Shown here piece by piece: positions 22,560 through 23,964 of a DNA stretch of 64,000 nucleotides. The number at the start of each line of letters is the position of its first letter. Within the stretch, counting starts at the first letter, position 1. A model generated the notes under the pieces. That model had not been told where the DNA came from and did no database searches. It worked only from the letters and a program-made list of their open reading frames with translations. Source of the stretch: an uncultured bacterium (GTDB lineage: Bacteria; Cyanobacteriota; Vampirovibrionia; Gastranaerophilales; Gastranaerophilaceae); assembly GCA_946622415.1 (NCBI GenBank), contig CAMOPX010000002.1, positions 124,001-188,000 on the forward strand, read 5' to 3'. Position numbers and translations under genes: made by a program.

Positions 22560-22648
22560 GGAAAAATGGCCGAGTGGCTGAAGGCGGCACCCTGCTAAGG
22601 TGTTAGGTGGAGTAATCTGCCTCGAGGGTTCGAATCCCTCTTTTTCCG
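22560..22648 (+). tRNA. tRNA-Ser (anticodon GCU)
   Basis: An 89-nt class II tRNA. The acceptor stem is GGAAAAA / TTTTTCC with discriminator G (22648). The anticodon loop is CTGCTAA on stem GCACC/GGTGT, so the anticodon is GCU (codons AGC/AGU). A long variable arm, typical of tRNA-Ser, precedes the T arm GAGGGTTCGAATCCCTC. CCA is not encoded. The last 12 bases recur 180 and about 360 bp downstream. Confidence 0.97.
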
Positions 22649-22816
22649 ATTTTTTTTGCCAATTTTGGATTTATACAATGGATGAGAACCCGAGAGGCTT
22701 GCCGAAGAGGGTTATGAATCCTACAACAAATCCAAAATCTTTGATTTTGTGATTTGATGGATGCAGCGAACGTAAATTTCTCGGCGAAAAATGAGCCGTA
22801 GAAATTAGTGAGAGTG
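22637..22816 (+). repeat. 180-bp tandem repeat, unit 1, starting within the tRNA-Ser 3' end
   Basis: The unit begins with CCTCTTTTTCCG, the end of the tRNA gene, and continues with 168 bp of hairpin-rich sequence: AACCC...GGGTT, AATCCAAAATC...GATTTTG, and AAATTTCTCGGC...GCCGTAGAAATT. A tiny frame, MRTREACRRGL, is present at 22682-22717 without a ribosome-binding site. The next unit repeats it with about four differences. Confidence 0.9.
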
Positions 22817-22996
22817 CCTCTTTTTCCGATTTTTTTTGCCAATTTTGGATTTATACAAGGGATGAGAACCCGAGAGGCTTGCCGAAGAGGGTTATGAATC
22901 CTACAACAAATCCAAAATCTTTGATTTTGTGATTTGATGGATGCAGCGAACGTAAATTTCTCGGCGAAGAATGAGCCATAGAAATTAGTGAGAGTG
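22817..22996 (+). repeat. 180-bp tandem repeat, unit 2
   Basis: Exactly 180 bp after unit 1, and nearly identical to it (differences include T to G at 22859, A to G in GCGAAGAATG, and GCCG to GCCA). It again opens with an intact copy of the tRNA-Ser 3' end, CCTCTTTTTCCG. The arginine-rich mini frame is preserved at 22862-22897. Confidence 0.9.
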
Positions 22997-23034
22997 TCTC
23001 TTTTTCTGATTTTTTTGCCAATTTTGGAATTTAT
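22997..23034 (+). repeat. Partial third repeat unit
   Basis: TCTCTTTTTCTG followed by a shortened T-run and GCCAATTTTGGA restarts the same repeat with substitutions and then diverges. It gives a total of about 2.2 units. The T-runs following each hairpin-rich unit could act as processing or termination sites. The stretch 23035-23094 holds nothing recognisable apart from GGAAA before the next gene. Confidence 0.8.
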
Positions 23035-23094
23035 AATTTATATTAGCAATTTTTTACTATAAATATTTTTTATTAATTTATAGGAAAAATTTCG

Positions 23095-23964
23095 ATGGAT
23101 ATCAATACGCAATTTAATTTTGCAAATTTTGTATCAAATAACATTTCAGATAATTCAAAAAACGTGTCTGAAATAAATTCCGATGCTTCAATATTTTCGG
23201 AAAAATCAGACAATTATACAAGAATAATTGCCCATAGAGGAGATTCGGACGACGCACCCGAAAATACTTTAGAAGCATATAAAACAGCGGTTGAAAACGG
23301 ATATGAAGTTGCAGAATGCGATGTGCGTTGGACAAGCGACGGAGAAGCGGTATTGCTTCATGATAAATCAATAAATCGTACTGCAAGAAAAGGAAAGGGT
23401 TGCTTTTTAATTTTTCCGAAGTTATGTAAAAAAATGACATTAGATGAATTAAGTCAATACGATTTCAGTTATAAATATCCTGAATATTTGAATAAATCAA
23501 AAATAACAACGCTTGAAGATTTACTCAAATTTTCAAAAGAAAACAATCTCAATTTATATATAGATTTAAAAGAAAAAGCCGGCTTTGACTATGACAAAGC
23601 AAAAAAAATAACAGAAACGGTAAAAAATTTAGGAATGGAAGATAATGTAACCTGGATTAGCACAAGTTGCGATTATTTAAAATCCGTTCAAAAATATATG
23701 CCAAAAGCAAGATTGGGCTATCTTTACAGAAAGAAAATTTCGGATAAAGCAATAGAAGAACTGGATAGTCTGAATAACGGCAAAAGTGAAGTATTTTTGG
23801 ATATAAAAAACTCTAAAGTAACACAAAAAGGTGTTGATAAATTGCATAATGCCGGGTATGATTTTGAAGTTTGGACGGTTAACAATAAAAAAGAAGCTGA
23901 AAAATTAATCAAAATGGGCTGTAAAGGCATCACGACAGATAAATTAAATAAAAATGAAATATAA
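23095..23964 (+). CDS. Glycerophosphodiester phosphodiesterase
   Basis: Hydrolyses glycerophosphodiesters to glycerol-3-phosphate and an alcohol. The GDPD core starts near residue 42: IIAHRGDSDDAPENTLEAY, then AECDVRWTSDGEAVLLHD with the catalytic His pair and metal-binding Glu/Asp, and VWTVNNKKEAEKLIKMGCKGITTD at the end. The first 40 residues are an Asn/Ser-rich tail that is not a signal peptide, unusual for this family. 289 residues. A bidirectional terminator follows. Confidence 0.92.
   Translation: MDINTQFNFANFVSNNISDNSKNVSEINSDASIFSEKSDNYTRIIAHRGDSDDAPENTLEAYKTAVENGYEVAECDVRWTSDGEAVLLHDKSINRTARKGKGCFLIFPKLCKKMTLDELSQYDFSYKYPEYLNKSKITTLEDLLKFSKENNLNLYIDLKEKAGFDYDKAKKITETVKNLGMEDNVTWISTSCDYLKSVQKYMPKARLGYLYRKKISDKAIEELDSLNNGKSEVFLDIKNSKVTQKGVDKLHNAGYDFEVWTVNNKKEAEKLIKMGCKGITTDKLNKNEI

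Follow-up and report, generated by a model that had tools for sequence, protein, structure and literature searches.

A tRNA-linked tandem repeat array in Gastranaerophilales and its likeness in plan to the RtT repeats of Escherichia coli

RtT, the repeat that follows tRNA genes in Escherichia coli (Rfam RF00391), was named as an RNA, has been annotated largely as a product of tyrT, and is poorly understood; the experimental papers on it are reportedly those of Boesl and Kersten. In the E. coli tyrV locus, the last 19 nt of tRNA-Tyr close the RtT repeats at 178, 356, and 534 bp; within the units we found GGGGAAGGATGAGAAGCTTCGA, an inverted copy of the T-arm with a TTCGAA to TGAGAA change (score 29; 0 of 500 shuffles as high). 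Partial tRNA copies and short palindromes are also known from other settings: prophages and integrative elements leave partial tRNA copies (attR) at tRNA genes (PMC9897764), REP/REPIN palindromes are mobilised by RAYT transposases (PMC2817692, PMC3116915), and strand-switch, or quasi-palindrome, rearrangements have been described (PMC8604942). Here, we describe a tandem array behind a tRNA-Ser(GCU) gene in a 64,000-nucleotide stretch of DNA (the window) from an uncultured member of the Gastranaerophilaceae, together with related units elsewhere in its genome, its genus, and its family.

The array behind tRNA-Ser(GCU)

A period-180 array occupies positions 22637-23035 of the window, with 2.2 copies at 96% matches (TRF), and resolves into two units, identical at 175 of 180 positions, and a 28-bp stub. 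Its features are as follows:

22560..22648, + strand: tRNA-Ser(GCU) gene, head of the array (ARAGORN; Rfam RF00005, 58.4 bits)
22624..22640, + strand: T-arm hairpin and then T-runs, terminator-like (consensus match only)
22637..22648, + strand: last 12 nt of the tRNA, the recurring sequence CCTCTTTTTCCG
22649..22828, + strand: unit 1, 180 bp (repeat comparison, TRF)
22649..22679, + strand: T-rich flank segment, ~28 nt, repeated together with the tRNA end
22680..22698, - strand: inverted T-arm copy of the unit's own tRNA in unit 1, GGATGAGAACCCGAGAGGC versus GGATTCGAACCCTCGAGGC
22760..22816, + strand: class-1 hairpin module GATGCAGCGAACG...TTAGTGAGAGTG, directly adjoining the tail copy (pairs covary, 11 relatives)
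22817..22828, + strand: tRNA 3' end copy 1, exact
22829..23008, + strand: unit 2, 5/180 differences from unit 1
22858..22878, - strand: inverted T-arm copy in unit 2, AGGGATGAGAACCCGAGAGGC (shuffle test)
22997..23008, + strand: tRNA 3' end copy 2, decayed, TCTCTTTTTCTG, two mismatches
23009..~23036, + strand: start of a third unit, 28 bp, flank segment only

An earlier sequence-only reading had reported that the last 12 bases of the tRNA recur 180 bp downstream and, decayed, another 180 bp on, and that two nearly identical units both keep the arginine-rich frame MRTREACRRGL; all of this was confirmed, down to the exact copy at 22817-22828, the two mismatches at 22997-23008, the five differing positions of 180, and the presence of the frame in both units. 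That reading overlooked a second tRNA-derived part of the units, the inverted T-arm copy, as well as the like units at the tmRNA and at several further tRNAs of this genome. At 22680-22698, GGATGAGAACCCGAGAGGC was compared with GGATTCGAACCCTCGAGGC, the reverse complement of the tRNA-Ser(GCU) end, giving a score of 18 that 2.8% of shuffles reach; the match in unit 2 is longer and scores 22, a value reached by 0.15% of 2000 shuffles. The arginine-rich frame starts at the ATG of this inverted arm. A coding reading of the frame was rejected, with related frames of 11, 11, 12, 18, and 6 codons and only MRT/MRS conserved, and, judged from these sequences, MRTREACRRGL is not a conserved protein frame.

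The Rfam scan of the window found no family other than tRNA. The named relatives of the window core are RUG14156, RUG14173, and a MAG labelled "Candidatus Gastranaerophilales bacterium"; no viral relatives were found for the adjacent window protein (23095-23964, glycerophosphodiester phosphodiesterase-like by eye). An origin of the array in assembly, which the sequence-only reading had allowed for, or in binning is extremely improbable: the window genome is assembled in 50 contigs at ~92% completeness, but the five differences between the unit copies, the other tRNAs of the same genome, and the complete genomes of E. coli in which the arrangement is present all argue against simple duplication, and independently made assemblies show the arrangement again at many tRNAs.

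Units at both ends of tRNA genes and their hairpin modules

The window's own genome was scanned for recurrences of the last 12-13 nt of each tRNA or tmRNA gene within 600 bp downstream, at no more than two mismatches. The last 13 nt recur downstream of 9 of the ~37 genes, at distances of 98-541 bp, and no tails were found upstream of these ~37 genes at the same level. The positive genes are those for Lys, Val, Phe, Leu, tmRNA, two Arg, and two Ser; recurrences number three at Lys(CUU) and two each at Val, Leu(CAA), and Phe, with others at Ser(CGA) and tmRNA, and every unit terminates in the 3' end of its own tRNA. The unit behind the tmRNA gene (L077, C4:17000-18300), which is of class 1 by its hairpin module, ends with the tmRNA 3' end CCCACCATCTCCA and also carries an inverted tmRNA T-arm. 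Separately, contigs C28 (L010) and C8 (L011) of this genome both begin, at positions 1-180, with the same repeat with a TACGGCTCATTCTTCG hairpin, so that a dispersed repeat breaks the assembly there.

In four same-genus genomes (112 tRNA/tmRNA genes; 12 nt, one mismatch), the tail recurs downstream of 17 genes and the head upstream of 23, and recurrences on the wrong side number zero both for heads downstream and for tails upstream. Tails thus occur only downstream and heads only upstream, so both tRNA ends are used, mirror-wise. One genome from another family of the same order gave no head or tail recurrence at any of 28 tRNAs. The prospect, raised by the sequence-only reading, that the unit occurs only here is countered by the same plan at many tRNAs of the window's own genome and genus. 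The proposal of an element that targets tRNA 3' ends was right as to the 3' ends and is too narrow, because units also lie at tRNA 5' ends (23 genes) and behind tmRNA.

The inverted arm is specific to the tRNA beside which it lies. When units were placed in a common orientation and aligned to the reversed end of their own and of all other tRNAs, the match to the own tRNA exceeded that to the others (39 loci; Fisher combined p ~4e-20, with tandem copies removed and with orthologous loci, e.g., tRNA-Phe in several species, not fully independent). The arm depends on the side, being the T-arm in 3' units and the D-arm in 5' units, as in CTCAGCAGGTAGAGCAC (17/17, tRNA-Lys(UUU), genome G009) and TGCTGGATTTGAACC (15/15, tRNA-Met, genome G005). 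The distance from the tRNA to the start of the inverted copy falls within 19-43 nt for 39 of 49 units, compared with 13 of 49 when a random tRNA is taken, and the direct repeat, consisting of the tRNA end and its flank, mostly halts right before the inverted arm and not beyond it. At 5' units the flank is an AT-rich promoter-side segment; at 3' units it is often a terminator hairpin. The plan of a locus is A-B-S-[inverted A]-[hairpin module]-B-S, where A is a tRNA arm, B the acceptor end of ~12 nt, and S the flank of ~20-43 nt on the terminator or promoter side.

Decayed tandem duplication of tRNA genes offers another route to tRNA-like sequence beside a tRNA. The 98-bp unit behind tRNA-Arg(CCU) (L082, own genome C3) is a degenerate whole-tRNA copy, which indicates that plain tRNA duplication and decay also occur in this genome; in the other units, however, the tRNA-like part by the flank is an inverted arm rather than a 5' half, the modules are common to different tRNAs, and the conserved cores are present in no tRNA. 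This explanation was already disfavoured on these grounds, and we regard it as very improbable.

The hairpin module lies in the stretch that separates the inverted arm from the tail copy. A class-1 module is carried by the window, Ser, tmRNA, Gln, and Asn units, and its sequence has changed while its structure was preserved: among 11 relatives, 8 of 11 predicted pairs are changed on both sides with pairing kept. Among 27 same-genus genomes, 9 contained copies found by a class-1 covariance model, 14 in all, with a tRNA-Ser, -Gln, -Asn, -His, or tmRNA gene in nearly all loci (one locus, L297, begins with a cut-off tRNA). A class-2 module, CCCTCTC-hairpin-TCGGCAGAGT, is present in 26 of the 146 genomes of the family, in which the reversed control pattern had no matches, and its hairpin sequence is different in nearly every copy; the one match to the class-2 pattern in IMG/VR, in apparent coding sequence without a tRNA, was taken as chance. 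Class-2 modules are found at both the 3' and the 5' ends of tRNAs and, in some genera, also within dispersed palindromes that lie apart from any tRNA. These palindromes, GTCATTCTGAG...CTCAGAATGAC (L265-L275; genomes G167 and G204), hold the module on one strand and number about ten copies in one genome, so that the answer to the earlier question of whether copies always abut tRNA genes is no. In genome G009 (L070, C1:101000-104400), two tRNA-Asn-type unit remnants ~1.8 kb apart bracket a 316-aa gene, the start of which (MIWNEQDHPRDEEGKF) is repeated behind the second remnant.

Unit turnover and the level at which the units act

The presence and copy number of the units vary among relatives. 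At tRNA-Ser(GCU), the unit is missing from most same-genus genomes, where the matches at 96-105 bp come from the tRNA gene that follows. Among complete genomes of E. coli, serX is followed by no unit in GZEC065, one in PapRG-06-3, and three in MG1655, and proK by none in Ecol_AZ147, one in MG1655, and two in RIVM_C037134. The serX empty site equals the occupied site minus whole 181-bp units, and the B+S direct repeat at serX ends at the start of the inverted T-arm. The empty E. coli sites could either have arisen by deletion or represent the state before insertion.

We place at about 0.55 the probability that the array is one of a set of lineage-wide non-coding foldback repeats at tRNA gene ends, the copy number of which changes by direct-repeat recombination. 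This reading would comprise several steps: (i) the unit would act at the DNA level, neither as a protein nor as an obligate co-product of the tRNA; (ii) given the B-S duplication, homologous recombination or slippage between the direct repeats would add or remove units; (iii) such gain or loss would leave the tRNA intact, because every junction recreates B together with the promoter or terminator segment; (iv) the inverted arm would be formed, or kept matched to the tRNA, via strand switching at the arm's own palindrome; and (v) the shared hairpin modules would be mobile, since they occur at different tRNAs and sometimes in other dispersed palindromes. Weighing against it, direct repeats of one tRNA alone cannot carry a module to another tRNA, and a conserved hairpin structure could also be that of a functional RNA or of single-stranded DNA.

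The units could instead be RNAs of the RtT type, co-transcribed with the tRNA and freed as structured small RNAs by processing at the tail copies. The tyrV RtT of E. coli, annotated as an ncRNA, shares the plan, the hairpin of the unit covaries, only a T-arm hairpin with T-runs separates the window tRNA from its unit, and the plus strand folds somewhat better than shuffles (z ~-2.1), but the minus strand folds equally well (z -2.18). Many units, moreover, lie beyond a clear terminator hairpin (Val, Asn, and Met here; proK, serX, and lysV in E. coli) or upstream of the tRNA, the unit is missing at tRNA-Ser(GCU) in most sister species, and A-C is as common as G-T among class-2 mismatches, whereas selection on a plus-strand RNA should favour G-T (small numbers). 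An RNA role cannot explain the 5' units and those beyond terminators, and the co-processed RNA suggested by the sequence-only reading is weakly supported on account of them; for units without a preceding terminator, those of the window included, their sequences leave room for such a role. On the whole, we hold this explanation to be unlikely.

Mobility raises two further possibilities. The first, which we put forward tentatively and consider unlikely on balance, is a dedicated mobile system that would insert tiny hairpin elements at either tRNA end: the folded single strand, copying the target's own arm and acceptor end, would mimic the tRNA gene for a trans-acting recombinase, the spare promoter or terminator would keep the tRNA functional, and the RtT of enterobacteria would be of the same kind. 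The second, rather unlikely in our estimate, is that of site-specific mini-elements, in the form of non-autonomous circles or single strands of 100-180 bp put at tRNA ends by a recombinase acting in trans, in which the hairpin of inverted arm and tail would mimic the tRNA target in the manner of integron attC or folded phage attachment sites. Consistent with such elements are the tRNA-end copies on both sides of each unit, the related modules at different tRNAs, the precise abutment of module and tail copy, the differences in presence between species, and the tyrosine recombinases in every genome tested. The genus, however, also holds integrase islands of 9-10 kb in tRNA-Met genes (L163, G007:C2:41700-61000; L181, G009:C8:58271-70000), one with a 180-aa integrase and phage-like genes and the other with a 363-aa integrase, and their ~40-nt direct (att) repeats reach the anticodon arm, as against the 12-22 nt copies of the units; in addition, the duplicated segment is of variable length, 5' ends are occupied too, and no recombinase is linked to the units. 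For the preferred reading, too, no recombinase or transposase was found tied to the units.

Comparison with known systems

Remnants of prophages and integrative elements share with the units one whole and one partial tRNA copy bounding inserted DNA. The units differ from them in that ~100 bp of gene-free DNA is inserted, the copy is 12-22 nt long, an inverted arm is present, and both tRNA ends are used; between the repeats we found no integrase and no long (~40 nt) att repeat. Partial tRNA ends need not indicate prophage or island boundaries. REP/REPIN sequences are likewise short, non-coding, palindromic repeats, and in some genera the class-2 module also lies in dispersed palindromes, but the units are tied both to the ends of tRNAs and to the sequence of the particular tRNA, and three same-genus genomes (G000, G004, and G009) held no RAYT-type Y1 transposase (PF01797). 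A strand switch would produce an inverted copy of a local palindrome with a direct repeat after it, the order seen in B-S-[A inverted]-B-S, but fails to account for hairpin modules common to different tRNAs. To integron attC the resemblance is in hairpin plan only.

The closest likeness in plan is to E. coli RtT, in which tandem 156-181 bp units directly behind tRNA genes carry the inverted T-arm of their own tRNA. The E. coli sample comprised 32 tRNAs in 11 selected regions, with tyrV deliberately included, so that the five tRNA types found positive do not give an unbiased frequency. Units of this plan, with the inverted T-arm, lie behind tyrV, proK, serX, and lysV, tail copies are present in the argQ-V cluster, and the Rfam RtT model matches the proK, serX, and lysV units. 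In E. coli IH5 (L311), a serX-like RtT unit lies beside a tyrosine integrase gene in a stretch without an annotated tRNA gene, an arrangement suggesting that an island inserted at the tRNA end and parted the tRNA from its unit.

The sequence-only reading had compared the array with the tandem units of tyrT, a comparison that was apt and goes deeper than was stated. Both kinds of unit stand in tandem directly 3' of a tRNA, end with that tRNA's 3' end, and hold its T-arm inverted, a trait outside the Rfam definition; tyrV, proK, and serX also share the TTCGAA to TGAGAA change, the E. coli Tyr, Pro, and Ser units having the GGATGAGAA loop change in common with the window unit. The two differ in the tail copy (the last 18-19 nt in E. 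coli, mostly 12 nt in Gastranaerophilales), in their hairpin modules, and in that Gastranaerophilales units occur also at tRNA 5' ends and behind tmRNA; the 32 E. coli tRNAs sampled showed none on the 5' side. The RF00391 covariance model, with a membership cut-off of at least 45 bits, gave no RtT match in the window, where Rfam recognised the tRNA only, no match at E up to 1 in six lineage loci, whereas the units of E. coli reach 133-138 bits, and nothing above the cut-off in 60 genomes of the class. The class-1 model (R1), run over 121 kb of E. coli tRNA loci, gave nothing at E up to 10. Because the models fail to match either way, we have not filed the array as RF00391; it resembles RtT in architecture, and to judge from the sequences a separate origin is possible.

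These data show RtT-like repeats to be an architecture, an inverted own arm with a direct end copy, rather than one RNA. This architecture occurs beside many tRNAs of different kinds in two distantly related phyla, one of which also has it at tRNA 5' ends and tmRNA. For a repeat that has long gone unexplained, it offers testable predictions (a DNA-level origin, the B-S direct repeat, and own-arm specificity), and the variation of zero, one, two, or three copies between E. coli strains makes the mechanism accessible in laboratory strains. Real and spread across the lineage, these tRNA-linked repeats are best described as a variant within the RtT kind, with a shared architecture that had gone unrecognised.
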